Assembly: GCF_900070365.1 (NCBI RefSeq)
Contig: NZ_LN850107.1
Location: 3,844,001 to 3,908,000 of the forward strand
Length of the DNA stretch: 64,000 bases
Direction of reading: 5' to 3'
Source: Alloactinosynnema sp. L-07
GTDB lineage: Bacteria > Actinomycetota > Actinomycetes > Mycobacteriales > Pseudonocardiaceae
Shown here: positions 56,406 to 62,965 of the stretch, piece after piece
Position numbering within the stretch: position 1 is the first letter of the stretch
How the letters are laid out: each line of letters starts with the position of its first letter
Notes under the pieces: model-generated
The model's database searches: none
Told to the model about the DNA's origin: nothing
The model's input: only the letters and a program-made list of their open reading frames with translations
Translations under genes and position numbers: made by a program

Positions 56406-56969
56406 TTAGGCGCGCGTGGCGCCGCGGAGTGCGTCGATCGCCTTTTCGAGGCGGGTCGCGCGGGTGGCGGGGGTGCGGGCCTTCATGAGGTCGAGCAGGA
56501 TCGCGTAGCGGCTGGTCTTGTCCAGGGCCTCGAATGCCTGGGCGGCGGACTTGTCGCGGGTCAGCGCCTCGGCGAGGTCGTCGGGAACCGTTGCCGCTTT
56601 CTGCGAGGCGTACGCGGCGGCCCAGCGGCCGTCGGCTTTGGCGGCTTCCACCTCCGCCAAACCTCCCGGACGCATGCGTCCCTCCGCGGTCAGGGCCGCT
56701 ACCTTGGCGACGTTGACCTGCGACCAGGTGCCCTTGGGGCGTCGGCGTGAGTACCGCTGGAGGAAGTGCGTCTCGTCCAGCGACCGGCGCTGGCCATCGA
56801 TCCACCCGAAACAGAGTGCGCCGTCGATTCCCTCGTTCGCGGTGATCGAGGCGATTCCGCTGTTCTTCTTGGCGATCTTGATCCAGACGCTCGCCTGGGA
56901 GTCGTGGTTGGCCTCCAGCCACGACTCCCATTCGGCGACGTCTTCGCAGGTGATGGTCGGCTCGGTCAT
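56406..56969 (-). CDS. YdeI/OmpD-associated family protein
   Basis: A 187-residue soluble protein. It has WESWLEANHDSQASVWIKIA, GIDGALCFGWIDGQRRSLDE and YSRRRPKGTWSQVNVAKVAAL, the three conserved blocks of the family, then a Lys/Ala-rich helical tail (LEKAIDALRGATRA). Members have been linked to bacteriocin or polymyxin tolerance, but the biochemical role is unknown. ATG 56969 is used. It lies 32 bp after the acyltransferase gene and could be its last operon partner. Confidence 0.85.
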   Translation of the reverse strand: MTEPTITCEDVAEWESWLEANHDSQASVWIKIAKKNSGIASITANEGIDGALCFGWIDGQRRSLDETHFLQRYSRRRPKGTWSQVNVAKVAALTAEGRMRPGGLAEVEAAKADGRWAAAYASQKAATVPDDLAEALTRDKSAAQAFEALDKTSRYAILLDLMKARTPATRATRLEKAIDALRGATRA

Positions 56970-57001
56970 GGCACCATCTTGCACCTGCGAAATGCTGATC
57001 C

Positions 57002-58771
57002 CTACGCGAGCAGTTCTTGCAGTTCGACCACGGCACCGCTGAGGTTGTCGGCGAAGGTGTGCATCTCGGCGGCGACCTGGATGGGGGTGCTCAGGTAGAT
57101 GTTGAGGCTGTCAGGGAGCAGGACATAGGCCACGCCGATGCATTGGGGGCTGGTGGAGCCGAAGCCGAAGTAGGTGATGTTCGTCGACGGGGCCGAACTG
57201 GTGCTCAGGTAGTCGTCGCGCATCTTGAGCCAGCCGGGGGTGTCGTAGAGCGCGAGCGGTGCACCGGTGCCGCGGCGCTTCTGGATCAGCTGGAGTTCCC
57301 AAAGGTGCTGTTCGGGGGCTTGGCCCGCCTGGCATTCCTTGGCTCGCGCGACGTGCTTCTCGGCCGCGGCGCGGAAGGCGGCGCGGCGGGCGTTGACGTC
57401 GTCGGATTCCATCGCGGACAGGAACGCCAGGACCTCGGGGGTGACCACGCGCATGGCTTCGGTGCGGCCGCGGTTGTACTGGCGGGTGGCGATCGATTCG
57501 TACGTGGCGCCCGCGAAGCCCTTGGTGCGCTTGTGCGCCAGTTGGTAGGCCAGCTGGGCGAAGGCGTCCGGGGACATTCCGAGTTGCTTGGCGCGGGTGG
57601 CGCCGAAGTCCGCGAACGACACCGTCTGGGTGGCGGTGTCGGCGGCGTACTGGGTGAAGGCGGCGCCCGCTGACTTGATCGTCTCGCGCAGGGCATCGGT
57701 CAGGGCGAACTCGACGGGTTCGATGGCGGGCAGACCCTGGGCGGCGGCGCCCGACGACGTCTCGTGTTCCTGGGGGGTGGAGTTCAGCAGGGCGTCGACG
57801 AAGGCGAGGATGGTGGTGCCGTCGAGGCCCTGGTGCTCGATGTTGATCCCGGCCTTGCCGTCGGCGAAGACGACGAGGGACACGGCCTTGTCGAACCAGC
57901 GGTTGTCGCCGTAGAGCAGCTGGTCGCACGCTTCCTGATCACCCGAGGGCGCGATGTCCTCAAGGCACACGCAGAACAGCGCCGTCTCGATTGTGTCGAC
58001 GGCGGCGGCGTTCGACTCGGCGAGGCTCTGGCGAGTGGCCGCCCACTCGGCGCGGGCCAGGGTGGTCAGGTGGCCGACCGGGAACTCGGCGGGGGCGGCG
58101 GCGGACTTGATGATCGCGTTCAGGCCCGCGGACAGGTCGTCCAGGGAGTGCGGGGTGCCCTCGGCGCCGAGCACGTCCATTCGGTAGATGTTGCCGCCGC
58201 GCAGGACCGCGATGTGCCGTGCCCGCGACGGGCCGGGCCACTCGTCGCTGTACGGGGTGCGCACGGTGTCCTGCGGGTCGCCCGGGATTCGGGTCGACGA
58301 GAAGAGGTACTTGTTCTGCTCCATCGACAGCGCCTGGCCGCGCTGGACGACCGGCGGGACGCGCTCGTCGTCCAGCAGTTGCTTGTAGGCCACGGCACCG
58401 GCGATCAGGCCCGCCGCGCGCTCGGTCTGCGTCTCGTCGGTGTCCTTGAAGAGGAAGAAGAAGTTCGCGTTGAGGGCGATTCGGTCGCGACGGCCGAGGT
58501 AGCGCGACGGCCAGAACGTGTCGAGCCAGCTGTGCACGCCCGGGGTCTCGTTGTACTCGACGAGAGCCGCGTGCAGCTCGTGCGCGGCGCTGTCCGGCGC
58601 CATGTAGGCGGCGACGGCGGACTCGGTCGCGGCCAGTTCCTCGGCGGTCAGCAGCGGGCCGCACCATTCCAGGAACCGCGCGCACGTCTCGGCGAGCGTG
58701 GGCAGTGGGACCCGGGGCAGCCGGTCCTCATTGCCGAAGGTGCGGGGAGACCAATCCGGGCTGCTGTTCAC
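57002..58771 (-). CDS. Carnitine/choline O-acyltransferase (eukaryotic type)
   Basis: A 589-residue CoA-dependent acyltransferase that should move an acyl group between CoA and the hydroxyl of carnitine, choline or a similar betaine. It matches animal carnitine acetyltransferase along its length: LPRVPLPTLAETC at the start; NRWFDKAVSLVVFADGKAG before the catalytic His313 in IEHQGLDGTT; KQLGMSPDAFAQLAYQLAHK near 410; ATYESIATRQYNRGRTEAMR near 435; and YFGFGSTSPQCIGVAYVL near the C-terminus. No organelle targeting or membrane segment is present. This family is uncommon in bacteria. The GTG start follows GAGGT. It lies 55 bp after the methyltransferase gene. Confidence 0.9.
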   Translation of the reverse strand: MNSSPDWSPRTFGNEDRLPRVPLPTLAETCARFLEWCGPLLTAEELAATESAVAAYMAPDSAAHELHAALVEYNETPGVHSWLDTFWPSRYLGRRDRIALNANFFFLFKDTDETQTERAAGLIAGAVAYKQLLDDERVPPVVQRGQALSMEQNKYLFSSTRIPGDPQDTVRTPYSDEWPGPSRARHIAVLRGGNIYRMDVLGAEGTPHSLDDLSAGLNAIIKSAAAPAEFPVGHLTTLARAEWAATRQSLAESNAAAVDTIETALFCVCLEDIAPSGDQEACDQLLYGDNRWFDKAVSLVVFADGKAGINIEHQGLDGTTILAFVDALLNSTPQEHETSSGAAAQGLPAIEPVEFALTDALRETIKSAGAAFTQYAADTATQTVSFADFGATRAKQLGMSPDAFAQLAYQLAHKRTKGFAGATYESIATRQYNRGRTEAMRVVTPEVLAFLSAMESDDVNARRAAFRAAAEKHVARAKECQAGQAPEQHLWELQLIQKRRGTGAPLALYDTPGWLKMRDDYLSTSSAPSTNITYFGFGSTSPQCIGVAYVLLPDSLNIYLSTPIQVAAEMHTFADNLSGAVVELQELLA

Positions 58772-58826
58772 TGTCGACCTCGAACTCGTGAAGGGATGAT
58801 CGGGTAACTCATCATGGCCGTGAGCA

Positions 58827-59624
58827 CTAGTGGGTGTCTCGAGGCCGGGATACGAAAAGTTGTGCGTAGAGCCAGCCGTCGGACTCCAGGCCGCTCGGGT
58901 CGACCCCGGCCGCCGCGAGCGACTCGATCACCTGGTCCTGTTCCTCGGCCGAGGCGAACCGGCGCTGCTTGAACACCCCGTCGACCCGCTCGGTCCGGTA
59001 GCCCAGCGCGCTCAGCCGCTCGGCGATCGGGGCGAAGGAGAACATCCGCAGCACGAAGTGCGCCATCCACGGCCTGCCGACCTCGGCGACCCGGCCGATC
59101 GTCTTCTCGGTGACGTAGCCGACGCAGCCGGTGGACACCACGATGTCGACCCCCGCCAGTGCCGCGCGCTGGGCGTCGGTCGGGTCGGCGCTCTCCAGGT
59201 CGGCGTGCAGGGTGTCGTCGACGAAGCCCGCCGCCCGCGCGTAGGCCAGCGCGGGCTCGGAGGCGTCGAACCCGACGAACCGCACCCCGTCGAGGCCACC
59301 GCGCTGCTCGACGAACCGGCGGTCGATCGAGCTGATGGTGTCGGTGTTCAGACCGCTCACCGCCCGGTAGCGCTCGGCCATCTCGTCCATAGTGGAGTCG
59401 CAGCGCAGCAGCGCGGCGTTGATCCCGTATGAGCAGCCGATGTCGAGCACGGTCGCCTCGGCGCCGCGCTGTTCCTGGAACTCCTGGATGAGCTTGAGGA
59501 AGTACGGCTTGGCCAGTTCGGGGATGCGGTAGTCCAGCGCGCTCAGCACGCCGAAATAGCCGCGCGGGTCGGGCTGGGTGTAGATGTCGTCGAAGGAGGT
59601 CTTTCCGGTCGCGTCCAAGTCCAC
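58827..59624 (-). CDS. Class I SAM-dependent methyltransferase
   Basis: A 265-residue Rossmann-fold methyltransferase. Motif I is ATVLDIGCSYGINAALLR near residue 60; motif II is RFVGFDASEPALAYARAAGF, and ADLESADPTDAQ and DIVVSTGCVGYVTEKTIG are the next two SAM-site blocks. The C-terminal part (RMFSFAPIAERLSALGYRTE, then a Trp/Tyr-rich end) is the substrate cap. It does not resemble a named small-molecule methyltransferase that I can identify. The GTG start has GAAGG upstream. It sits between the oxygenase and acyltransferase genes and probably modifies the same molecule. Confidence 0.82.
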   Translation of the reverse strand: MDLDATGKTSFDDIYTQPDPRGYFGVLSALDYRIPELAKPYFLKLIQEFQEQRGAEATVLDIGCSYGINAALLRCDSTMDEMAERYRAVSGLNTDTISSIDRRFVEQRGGLDGVRFVGFDASEPALAYARAAGFVDDTLHADLESADPTDAQRAALAGVDIVVSTGCVGYVTEKTIGRVAEVGRPWMAHFVLRMFSFAPIAERLSALGYRTERVDGVFKQRRFASAEEQDQVIESLAAAGVDPSGLESDGWLYAQLFVSRPRDTH

Positions 59625-59653
59625 GCCTTCGGTTCCCTTCCTAGTGTCCTGCG

Positions 59654-59746
59654 CTCGGCCGCGGTGGCGATCCGGGGGTTCGCGGGCACGGCGACGCAGT
59701 CGCTCGTGTTCGCGGGCCCCCGGATCGCCACCTAAAGGCGGCCGAG
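59654..59746. repeat. Long composite hairpin between oxygenase and methyltransferase genes
   Basis: CTCGGCCGC (59654-59662) and GCGGCCGAG (59738-59746) form an outer 9-bp stem. GGTGGCGATCCGGGGG (59663-59678) and CCCCCGGATCGCCACC (59717-59732) form a 16-bp perfect inner stem. The loop holds a GCGAC/GTCGC palindrome (59691-59703). A 5-base bulge separates the stems on one side. It could attenuate transcription between the two genes or be a mobile palindrome. Confidence 0.7.
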
Positions 59747-59810
59747 CCGCGCTCCCGGAGGGAGCGCCGTGTCACTGGCCGCGCTTCCGGAGGGAGCGCC
59801 ATGTCTCAGT
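59747..59810. repeat. Tandem direct repeat with small hairpins
   Basis: A 32-bp unit occurs twice in a row (from 59747 and 59779) with few changes. Each contains a palindrome of the form GCGCTCCC-GGA-GGGAGCGC (59749-59767 and, with one wobble, 59781-59799). Each unit also places GGAGGGAGCGCC in front of GTG or ATG on the plus strand, but the frames that follow are a 19-codon peptide and an antisense of the oxygenase gene, so I do not call genes. Confidence 0.6.
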
Positions 59811-59824
59811 CCGGCTTTACCTTC

Positions 59825-60763
59825 CTAATCCAGGAGTTCGTCGCCGCGCACCGTGCCCGCGGCGGCCAGGTGCTCTGGCAGGACCCGGCCGAAGAGCTGT
59901 CTGGTCCGTTCCAGGCTGCCGATCACCCCAGGACGCTCGCTGTAGGCGAAGATCGCGGAATGGCGGGCGGTGTCGCCGTGCACGGGGGTCACCCGGTGCA
60001 GCGAATAGCGCCCTTTGAACAGCTGTAGGTCGCCGGGCCGCAGCGAAAGCCGGTTGATCAACCGTTCGCCTTCACCGGTCAGCACGGCGGCCACGTCGTC
60101 GAGGTTCTCCGATCCGGCCGACCGGATATTCGGGCAGTATTCGAACACGCCGCCGGTGTTCGATTGCTGGGTGAGCATGCTGACGGTGAATTCATTGGTG
60201 TCGAAGTGCCAGGGATGCCCTTTTTCCGGGGACACCACATTGAGGCAGAGCCCGGCCAGCGGGTCGGCGAACTCGTGGAGCGCGTCGAGTTCGAAGCACT
60301 CGGCGACGAACCGCTGGAACAGCTCACTGGTGTAGAGCCGGTGGATGATCGACTCGGCCGGGATCCGGTCGCGGGCCACGAAAGCGTTGCCGCGCTCCAT
60401 GATCAGCCGCCCGGGGTGGCCTTCGGGCAGGTCGGCGTCGAGCGGGATGTTGTAGGCGTTGACCGACTCGACGTCATAGTGCGCCAGCGGCGCGACGGCG
60501 GCACACTCGGCGCGCAGGGCCTCGCGCAGGTCGCCGCGGAGGAAGTCTGGCAGCACACTGCACCCGTCGGCGCGCAATTCGGCGCGCGCCTGGGAAACCG
60601 CGGCGTGCCAGCCCTCGCCCGCCGGATCGGCCAGCGGATATCGCGCGGTGTCCACGACCTGCTCGATGACCCGAGCTCCCGGTGCGATCATGCGGTTCAT
60701 TCTGTTGATCCGAAGTGGATCGGCGCCACCGAAAAACCGATCCGATTTCGTGACGGTAGCCAT
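59825..60763 (-). CDS. ArpA/BesD-like Fe(II)/2-oxoglutarate oxygenase (hydroxylase form)
   Basis: A 312-residue member of the non-haem iron, 2-oxoglutarate enzyme fold. The iron ligands are His186 and Asp188 (GHPWHFDTNEFTVSMLTQQ) and His256 (GRYSLHRVTPV); Arg267 (TARHSAIFAYSERP) should bind 2-oxoglutarate. Halogenases of the BesD group have Gly where this has Asp188, so this one should hydroxylate, not chlorinate. ATG 60763 (MATVTKSDRFF) is chosen. It begins 30 bp after the recG stop, and is followed by long hairpins and then the methyltransferase gene. An amino acid or betaine substrate is likely. Confidence 0.82.
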   Translation of the reverse strand: MATVTKSDRFFGGADPLRINRMNRMIAPGARVIEQVVDTARYPLADPAGEGWHAAVSQARAELRADGCSVLPDFLRGDLREALRAECAAVAPLAHYDVESVNAYNIPLDADLPEGHPGRLIMERGNAFVARDRIPAESIIHRLYTSELFQRFVAECFELDALHEFADPLAGLCLNVVSPEKGHPWHFDTNEFTVSMLTQQSNTGGVFEYCPNIRSAGSENLDDVAAVLTGEGERLINRLSLRPGDLQLFKGRYSLHRVTPVHGDTARHSAIFAYSERPGVIGSLERTRQLFGRVLPEHLAAAGTVRGDELLD

Positions 60764-60793
60764 ATTGTGTCGCGCGCCCAAGATCCGGTAAAT

Positions 60794-62965
60794 TCAGGAC
60801 TTTTCCAGATATTCCGCGCGGTCGTCGGCGACGAGTTGGCCGACCATGGTGGCCAATCCGGGATAGGGCCCAAGATCGGGATCGTCGGCGATGAGCGCCT
60901 GCGCCACGATCCGCGCGTCGGCGATGACCCCCTCGTCCTGCAGCAGCGACAGCATCTTCAGCCCCGAGCGGGACCCGGACTGGCTGGCGCCGAGGATGTC
61001 GCCCTCGCGGCGCATCTCCAGGTCGAGCCTGGCCAGCTCGAATCCGTCCAAAGTGGACGCTACGGCGGCCAGCCGGTCGCGGGTGGCGGTGCCGCCGGGC
61101 ATCTCGGTGACCAGCAGGCAGAGTCCGGGCGCGCTCCCCCGGCCGACCCGGCCGCGCAGCTGGTGCAGTTGGCTGACACCGAAGCGGTCGGCGTCCATGA
61201 TGACCATCGCGGTGGCGTTGGGGACGTTGACGCCGACCTCGATCACGGTGGTGGCGACCAGCACGTCGAGTTCGGCGGCGGCGAAGGCCCGCATCACCCG
61301 GTCCTTCTCGTCCGGGGCGAGCCGTCCGTGCAGGACCCCGAGCCGCAGCCCGGCGAGCGCGCCGTCGGCCAGTTCGGTGGCCACGTCCACCACCGCGAGC
61401 GGCGGACGCCGGTCTGAGCCCTCGTCGCCGCCGGAGGCGTCCTCGGCCGCGGCGTCGTCGCCGATGCGCGGGCACACCACATAAGCCTGGTGCCCCTTGC
61501 CGACCTCCTCGCGCACGCGCTGCCAGACTCGGTCGAGCCAGGCGGGCCGCTCGGCGACGGGCACCACGTTGGTCGAGATCGGCGAGCGGCCCGCGGGCAG
61601 CTCGCGCAGCGCGGAGGTCTCCAGGTCGCCGTAGACCGTCATGGCGACGGTGCGCGGGATCGGCGTCGCGGTCATGACCAGCACGTGCGGGCTGACGTTC
61701 TCCCCCGCCCGCGCCCGCAGCGCGTCGCGCTGCTCGACGCCGAAGCGGTGCTGCTCGTCGACCACGACGAAGCCCAGGTCGGCGAAGATCACCTTGTCCT
61801 GGATCAGCGCGTGCGTGCCGACCACGATGCCCGCCGCCCCGCTGGCCGCGTCGAGCATGGCCTGCTTGCGCTGCGGGGCCGACAGGGAGCCGGTGAGCAG
61901 GGTGATGCTGGTGGCGTTGTCGGCGCCGCCGAGCATGCCGCCCTGCGCGAGGTCGCCCATCATCTCGGCCAGCGAGCGGGCGTGCTGGGCGGCCAGGACC
62001 TCGGTCGGCGCCAGCAGCGCGGCCTGCCTGCCCGAGTCGATCACCTGCAGCATCGCGCGCAGCGCCACGATCGTCTTGCCGGAGCCGACCTCGCCCTGCA
62101 GCAGCCTGCTCATCGGATGGCTGCCGGAGAGGTCCTCGGTGATGGCGTGGCCCACCTCCACCTGGCCCTTGGTCAGGGTGAACGGGAGCCGCTGGTCGAA
62201 CGCGTCGAGGATCCCGTCGGGCCGGGGCGGGCACGCGGGCGCGGGGCGGGCGCCCGCGGCCTGCCTGCGCTGGGCGAGCACGAGCTGCAGCGCCAGCGCC
62301 TCGTCCCACTTGAGCCGGGTCTTGGCGGACTCCACATCGGACCAGTCGGCGGGCAGGTGGATCGCGCGCACGGCCGCGTCGTACTCCGACAGGCCCAGCT
62401 TCTCCCGCAGTTCCAGGGGGAACGGGTCGTCGATGGCGTCGAGCATGCCCAGCGCCTGGTGCACGCACTGGGCGATCTGCCAGGACTGGATCTTCGCCGA
62501 GGCCGGGTAGACCGGGATCAGGCTGCCCGCGAACTCCTCGACGTTGACGTCCTCGGTCGAGTCGATGAGCTGATAGTCCGGGTTGGCCAGTTGCAGCTTG
62601 TTGCGGAACGCGGTGACCTTGCCCGCGAACAGCGCGTCCAAGCCGGGGCGCAGCTTGTCGAGGTGCCACGGCTGGTTGAAGAACGCGCACTCCAGCGACT
62701 TCTTGCCGTCGGTCAGCACGACCTCGACGATCGAGCCGCGCTTGGTCTTCATCTGGCGCTTGTTCACCGAGACGACCTTGGCCATCACCGTGACGTGCTC
62801 ACCGACCTCCAGGCCCGCGATCTCGGTGAGCTGGCCGCGCTCGGCGTAGCGGCGCGGATAGTGGCGCAGCAGCTCGCCCGCGGTCTCCAGGGAGAACGCG
62901 GCGTTGAGCGCGTCGGCCGACTTCTTGCCCACCACCCGATCGAGCTTGTCGCCCAGCGAAGCCAT
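60794..62965 (-). CDS. recG: ATP-dependent DNA helicase RecG
   Basis: Branch-migration helicase for stalled forks and Holliday junctions. The 723-residue protein has the N-terminal wedge/OB domain (HVTVMAKVVSVNKRQMKTKR), Walker A LLQGEVGSGKTIVALRAML, the DEQH box FVVVDEQHRFGVEQRDALRA, motif III VLVMTATPIPRT, and the C-terminal helicase motifs VLVATTVIEVGVNVPNA and QLRGRVGRG. Its neighbour upstream is the DAK-family gene, as in other actinobacteria. Confidence 0.98.
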   Translation of the reverse strand: MASLGDKLDRVVGKKSADALNAAFSLETAGELLRHYPRRYAERGQLTEIAGLEVGEHVTVMAKVVSVNKRQMKTKRGSIVEVVLTDGKKSLECAFFNQPWHLDKLRPGLDALFAGKVTAFRNKLQLANPDYQLIDSTEDVNVEEFAGSLIPVYPASAKIQSWQIAQCVHQALGMLDAIDDPFPLELREKLGLSEYDAAVRAIHLPADWSDVESAKTRLKWDEALALQLVLAQRRQAAGARPAPACPPRPDGILDAFDQRLPFTLTKGQVEVGHAITEDLSGSHPMSRLLQGEVGSGKTIVALRAMLQVIDSGRQAALLAPTEVLAAQHARSLAEMMGDLAQGGMLGGADNATSITLLTGSLSAPQRKQAMLDAASGAAGIVVGTHALIQDKVIFADLGFVVVDEQHRFGVEQRDALRARAGENVSPHVLVMTATPIPRTVAMTVYGDLETSALRELPAGRSPISTNVVPVAERPAWLDRVWQRVREEVGKGHQAYVVCPRIGDDAAAEDASGGDEGSDRRPPLAVVDVATELADGALAGLRLGVLHGRLAPDEKDRVMRAFAAAELDVLVATTVIEVGVNVPNATAMVIMDADRFGVSQLHQLRGRVGRGSAPGLCLLVTEMPGGTATRDRLAAVASTLDGFELARLDLEMRREGDILGASQSGSRSGLKMLSLLQDEGVIADARIVAQALIADDPDLGPYPGLATMVGQLVADDRAEYLEKS

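Follow-up and report, generated by a model that had tools for sequence, protein, structure and literature searches.

An actinobacterial gene unit for an oxygenase, a methyltransferase and a carnitine/choline acyltransferase-family protein, predicted to build an O-acylated small metabolite

The closest described systems to the locus studied here are eukaryotic carnitine biosynthesis and acylation, the HalD/BesD enzymes (the lysine halogenase BesD and a lysine hydroxylase among them), and carnitine acetyltransferase, CPT2 and choline acetyltransferase. The locus itself belongs to Alloactinosynnema sp. L-07 and lies in a 64,000-nucleotide stretch of contig NZ_LN850107.1 (the whole of which is hereafter called the window), where three genes on the minus strand, spanning positions 57002-60763, code for an oxygenase, a methyltransferase and a carnitine/choline acyltransferase-family protein (CAT). 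Their reaction types are those of the eukaryotic carnitine pathway, whereas the oxygenase comes from another family, the methyltransferase is often separable, and neither lysine nor butyrobetaine is indicated. We put at roughly two in three the probability that the unit builds one small metabolite: the oxygenase would hydroxylate an amino-acid-like or cationic precursor, CAT would move a short acyl group from coenzyme A (CoA) to the new hydroxyl by means of His313, and the methyltransferase would add a methylation that is usual but dispensable. What was observed in favour of this comprises the identity of the genes, their co-occurrence and order, fused frames, conserved catalytic residues and a changed acceptor site in CAT. 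Hydroxylation followed by O-acylation, as already proposed in an earlier sequence-only reading of the window, is the simplest reading of the unit, and the product would likely resemble acyl-carnitine in its logic, with carnitine itself not being the predicted product.

The same early reading had grouped the three enzymes on one strand; all were found in place, and their identities were confirmed:

59825-60763, minus strand: Fe(II)/2-oxoglutarate oxygenase of the HalD family, predicted hydroxylase, 312 amino acids, first gene of the unit
58827-59624, minus strand: class I S-adenosylmethionine (SAM)-dependent methyltransferase of a family without a name, 265 amino acids
57002-58771, minus strand: CAT, carnitine/choline acyltransferase-family protein, 589 amino acids, whose catalytic pair is H313/D317 and whose acceptor site is altered (R90, Q488, E492, F535)

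The distribution of the unit was analysed in actinobacteria, using the window's own genome with its nearest relatives (100 genomes in all), an order sample of 397 genomes and a phylum sample of 396 genomes. Among the 100 nearest genomes, the oxygenase is present in 24, CAT in 26 and the methyltransferase in 26. All 24 oxygenase genomes carry CAT within the fetched 1.5 kilobases, and only G055 and G076 possess CAT without oxygenase. As for the methyltransferase, it was found in 23 of the 24 oxygenase genomes (22 at the locus, G045 elsewhere, none in G039), and without the oxygenase in G076, G081 and G097. Within the window's genus, all three genes are present in eight of the 16 genomes, and none of them in the eight others. 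In the order sample, CAT occurs in 47 of the 397 genomes, 44 of them with an adjoining oxygenase (15 already known from the 100-genome sample and 29 of 31 newly examined), while neither oxygenase nor methyltransferase was detected in any of the 17 CAT-free control genomes. The phylum sample yielded a match to the acyltransferase family PF00755 in five of 396 genomes, one of these being a fragment. Genera carrying the unit include Streptomyces, Nocardia, Amycolatopsis, Actinomadura and Frankia, and a plasmid collection gave no match to CAT. Protein distances among 79 rows also correlate (Pearson 0.86-0.90), a value obtained with no species-tree control and not counted as support. As a whole, the unit is a real one, conserved, passed on and lost as a whole in scattered actinobacteria and not yet characterised; the literature searched for the gene set and its enzymes held no description or function of this CAT group.

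Gene order was compared in loci from named genomes, the best 80 of 461 confirmed stretches, which come partly from the same genomes as the other samples, so that the sets are not independent. Oxygenase, methyltransferase and CAT follow one another in one order and on one strand in 78 of the 80 loci, the two exceptions being Amycolatopsis anabasis, where the methyltransferase is missing, and a locus cut by a contig edge. In five of the 78, the methyltransferase frame runs without a stop into CAT, giving 899-941 amino acids, with an internal CAT start being possible; these fused frames are found in Frankia, Protofrankia, Gandjariella and Streptomyces specialis. That the three genes form one functional unit had been proposed from the window, with co-occurrence in relatives as the point to be checked, and both the co-occurrence (24/24 oxygenase genomes with CAT) and the order (78/80) bear this out. 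Concerning the surroundings, no neighbour outside the unit is common to more than three of the 25 loci examined; the unit lies in unrelated surroundings and brings along no transporter or biosynthetic gene of its own, and three genes therefore suffice as a unit. The neighbouring genes were called with a simple GC-bias scheme, which left the oxygenase unmarked in four of the 25 loci (L042, L045, L047 and L050, of which L050 matches HalD only weakly) and overlooked some methyltransferases; the counts of adjacency therefore come from tblastn.

The oxygenase belongs to the HalD/BesD family, scoring 51.3 bits against the Pfam HalD model PF23169 (cut-off 26), a model that 40 of 40 oxygenase homologues also match. 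WelO5 and a GNAT-like model were the other Pfam models listed, and no TauD model was among the matches at E up to 1. The hydroxylase-type ligands HxD...H pointed out in the sequence-only reading hold throughout: H186, D188 and H256 are invariant in the 40 aligned homologues, together with R267, the arginine that binds 2-oxoglutarate. In halogenases of the HalD/BesD type, a glycine takes the position of the carboxylate that binds iron (HxG; PMC13244439), unlike in the enzyme here. Because this aspartate ligand is present, the oxygenase is read as a hydroxylase and not as a halogenase, and from knowledge of the family it is predicted to use Fe(II), O2 and 2-oxoglutarate. Homologues in public databases are named 'HalD/BesD family halogenase' (several of them by NCBI) or 'arpA protein', despite their Asp ligand; the former label probably names the wrong reaction. 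Also, most homologues have 286-315 amino acids, and the true start of the oxygenase may lie 20-30 codons further in.

As for its substrate, PMC13244439 describes two contacts in BesD, H137 binding the lysine carboxylate and Asp143 the amine. Through an alignment that is weak (E 0.015-0.05), H137 corresponds to the invariant His183 of the oxygenase, Asp143 to Thr189 and Glu123 to about Leu169. With a threonine aligned to Asp143, lysine need not be the substrate, and a carboxylate-bearing compound other than plain lysine would fit. The profile search against solved structures gave a best E of only 0.016, and the substrate argument from the BesD residues is therefore weak.

CAT matches Carn_acyltransf (PF00755) over its full length (529 bits, profile positions 1-572 of 574) and is the sole PF00755 match in its genome. 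Its scores against solved chains of the family are about 200-229 bits for carnitine acetyltransferase and CPT2, and 191 bits for choline acetyltransferase 2fy2. The catalytic His313 and its acidic partner Asp317 are kept in all 80 CAT rows, and the alignment with carnitine acetyltransferase and CPT2 shows that the motifs TYES, GRT and STS, as well as Thr437, are retained. In window 57824-57833, residue 314, beside the catalytic His, is a Gln, while 79 of the 80 aligned rows have Cys.

The acceptor site, in contrast, differs from that of the solved carnitine enzymes. Gln488 stands in 79/79 rows where these have Arg; Arg90, next to Tyr91, is invariant (80/80) where they have Ala or Met; and Glu492, one helical turn past Gln488, is invariant (79/79) where they have Gly or Ala. 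All three residues are present in the 12 re-arranged units (12/12) and in G055, G076 and G498. The comparison set (carnitine acetyltransferase, CPT2 and two divergent bacterial CATs) has R at 488, A, M, D or G at 90 and G or A at 492. The two divergent bacterial CATs, from G766 (L222) and G235 (L223), are 25-28% identical and retain the carnitine Arg, without R90, Q488 or E492. The position of Gln488 is that of mouse carnitine acetyltransferase Arg518, which we take to be the ligand of the carnitine carboxylate, and with this Arg replaced throughout (the 12 re-arranged units included), CAT does not have the mark of a carnitine acyltransferase proper. The pocket for the acceptor has likely been rebuilt in its pattern of charges, and carnitine is, on these residues, an unlikely acceptor. 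Choline acetyltransferase also lacks the carnitine Arg, presumably having Asn there and, in its GRVDN motif, a Val and an Asn; CAT differs by its Gln and its GRTEA motif, in which T437 is kept (for the presumed Val) and Ala439 stands for the presumed Asn. Finally, Phe535 is found in 79/79 rows (Trp in G076 and G498), at what we take to be the gate of the acyl tunnel, Met564 in carnitine acetyltransferase and Gly in CPT2. Since this invariant Phe occupies the gate position, a short acyl group is predicted, and Phe535 thus suggests that CAT uses short-chain donors.

Of the 44 genomes of the order sample with oxygenase and CAT, 32 have the methyltransferase between these genes, two (G717 and G733) have it immediately after CAT, and three (G045, G648 and G688) have it elsewhere in the genome; it was not detected in the other seven (G039, G580, G651, G668, G702, G775 and G782). 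The CAT site is alike in the units without it, small differences at 526, 534 and 539 being the only ones among 22 positions compared. With the methyltransferase undetected and the site unchanged, the CAT acceptor is either independent of methylation or methylated by another enzyme. Mapped on a tree of CAT, the label 'no methyltransferase in the fetched stretch' changes seven times at the simplest count, and at least four of these changes are forced by well-supported branches; this tree was built by a quick method from 69 of 120 rows (of those with an upstream methyltransferase, every second one was taken), with internal-stop rows dropped and some long branches unsure. Methylation as an obligatory early step, as first suggested from the window, is thus probably wrong, and the core of the unit would likely be hydroxylation plus O-acylation, the latter predicted to be short-chain, to which methylation is usually added.

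The methyltransferase itself reaches no Pfam cut-off (the best-scoring model is Methyltransf_25, with 22.9 bits where 27 are needed), and no sequence relative was found for it among solved structures. Its fold was predicted with a mean local confidence score (pLDDT) of 91.3, and the Rossmann-type fold and the SAM motif make it a class I SAM methyltransferase. The nearest folds are mixed: the C-methyltransferases SeMT and SgMT, the sugar N-methyltransferase TylM1, the methionine S-methyltransferase MmtN and juvenile hormone acid O-methyltransferase, so that the fold neighbours of this model do not single out N-methylation. The methyl group may then end up in an ester, or on an oxygen or a carbon and not on a nitrogen, which would make the product a hydroxy amino acid that is acylated and methylated but has no quaternary ammonium. 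We regard this as the alternative that survives best, yet still as unlikely: a dispensable methylation is what would be expected of a late decoration, whereas no above-cut-off sequence match links the enzyme to any of those methyltransferase families, and the aromatic residue on the cation side of the CAT site is invariant.

That aromatic residue, Phe537 (79/79 rows), corresponds to F566 of carnitine acetyltransferase, which we presume to be the partner of the trimethylammonium group. A more specific and rather improbable version of the metabolite would be a new bacterial class of carnitine analogues, in which the side-chain amine of a basic amino acid such as ornithine or lysine is methylated, the adjacent carbon hydroxylated by the HalD-type hydroxylase and the hydroxyl capped with a short acyl group, the Gln488/Arg90/Glu492 site holding the alpha-amino acid end. 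If true, actinobacteria would have molecules that resemble acyl-carnitine but end in an amino acid, as an acyl store, a signal or a protective solute.

A true bacterial carnitine pathway, with a 4-aminobutyrate-type amine trimethylated, hydroxylated to carnitine and acylated, is more doubtful again. The three reaction types match, the acyltransferase family and its catalytic His are right, and Phe537 would provide for the cation; this much of the carnitine analogy drawn from the window stands. The part concerning carnitine itself does not hold, as the presumed carboxylate Arg is Gln in 79/79 rows, though two divergent bacterial CATs keep it. Furthermore, the oxygenase is of the HalD family and not of the TauD/gamma-butyrobetaine hydroxylase family, to which a butyrobetaine or trimethyllysine hydroxylase of carnitine biosynthesis would belong, and seven of the 44 units have no detected methyltransferase. 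As to chance neighbours serving unrelated pathways, a few genomes have the methyltransferase or the oxygenase apart from CAT, but the perfect on/off pattern within the genus, the order in 78/80 loci, the varied surroundings and the fused frames leave this hardly credible.

Several points weigh against the preferred reading, that of a single metabolite hydroxylated and then O-acylated. None of the enzymes has a characterised close relative; the similarity of the oxygenase to solved lysine hydroxylases and halogenases is weak (E about 0.015-0.05), and its structure model (pLDDT 66.7) is too poor for use. In G580 (L219), oxygenase and CAT are adjacent but convergent, hence not one transcript, the sole opposite-strand case of the 44. 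Three of the 47 CAT genomes of the order sample (G076, G498 and G766) have no oxygenase, and G055 (L159, 7735-10888) has a CAT of this subfamily that immediately follows an amino-acid permease (PF13520), with neither an oxygenase nor a methyltransferase. Acylation is therefore possible without this oxygenase in these four genomes, and the permease neighbour in G055, a single case, fits an amino-acid-like CAT acceptor. Divergent methyltransferases also exist without CAT, in G081 and G097. Lastly, the roles given above to Arg518, Met564, Phe566 and the choline acetyltransferase residues were not found in the papers searched. PMC10187165 gave none of the residues sought, and PMC13255071 and PMC4978996 gave the contacts of choline acetyltransferase Tyr552 but nothing on the carnitine Arg.

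The G076 locus (L160, 8251-11970) has no oxygenase; behind its CAT lies a methyltransferase that is divergent in sequence (about 40% identity), and upstream a DUF5996 gene in divergent orientation.

The remaining features at the locus are the following:

60794-62965, minus strand: recG, which precedes the oxygenase gene in the window
59625-59824, no strand: intergenic stretch of 200 bases between oxygenase and methyltransferase genes, containing one copy of a palindromic repeat that is dispersed in the genome, and a 32-nucleotide direct repeat
56406-56984, minus strand: YdeI/OmdA-type gene, which follows the CAT gene in the window

The intergenic stretch contains an inverted repeat with 28-nucleotide arms (59663-59690 and 59705-59732, 86% complementary), and the direct repeat in two tandem copies (59746-59809). 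The inverted repeat belongs to a palindromic repeat, about 110-130 bases long, that is dispersed over about 11 places in the genome with 72-96% identity, a count derived from 15 matches, several of them the same place on both strands, with 40 of 172 candidates scored. In the close relatives L052, L003 and L004, the gap between the two genes is below 20 bases and the repeat is absent; no terminator-like site was called in 56900-60900. The hairpin seen after the oxygenase gene is real as an inverted repeat, but the break in co-transcription attributed to it is unsupported, because it belongs to a dispersed repeat and the stretch has no called terminator-like site. A repeat insertion specific to this lineage, and not a conserved transcription break, explains it best. 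The unit also gave no match to a defence-system library.

PF00755 genes are rare in this phylum (5/396 genomes), yet here they are almost always tied to a hydroxylase (44/47 in the order sample). With its three genes, the unit is a small, expressible set in which to look for an unknown metabolite and for an acceptor specificity that is new to this well-studied fold.

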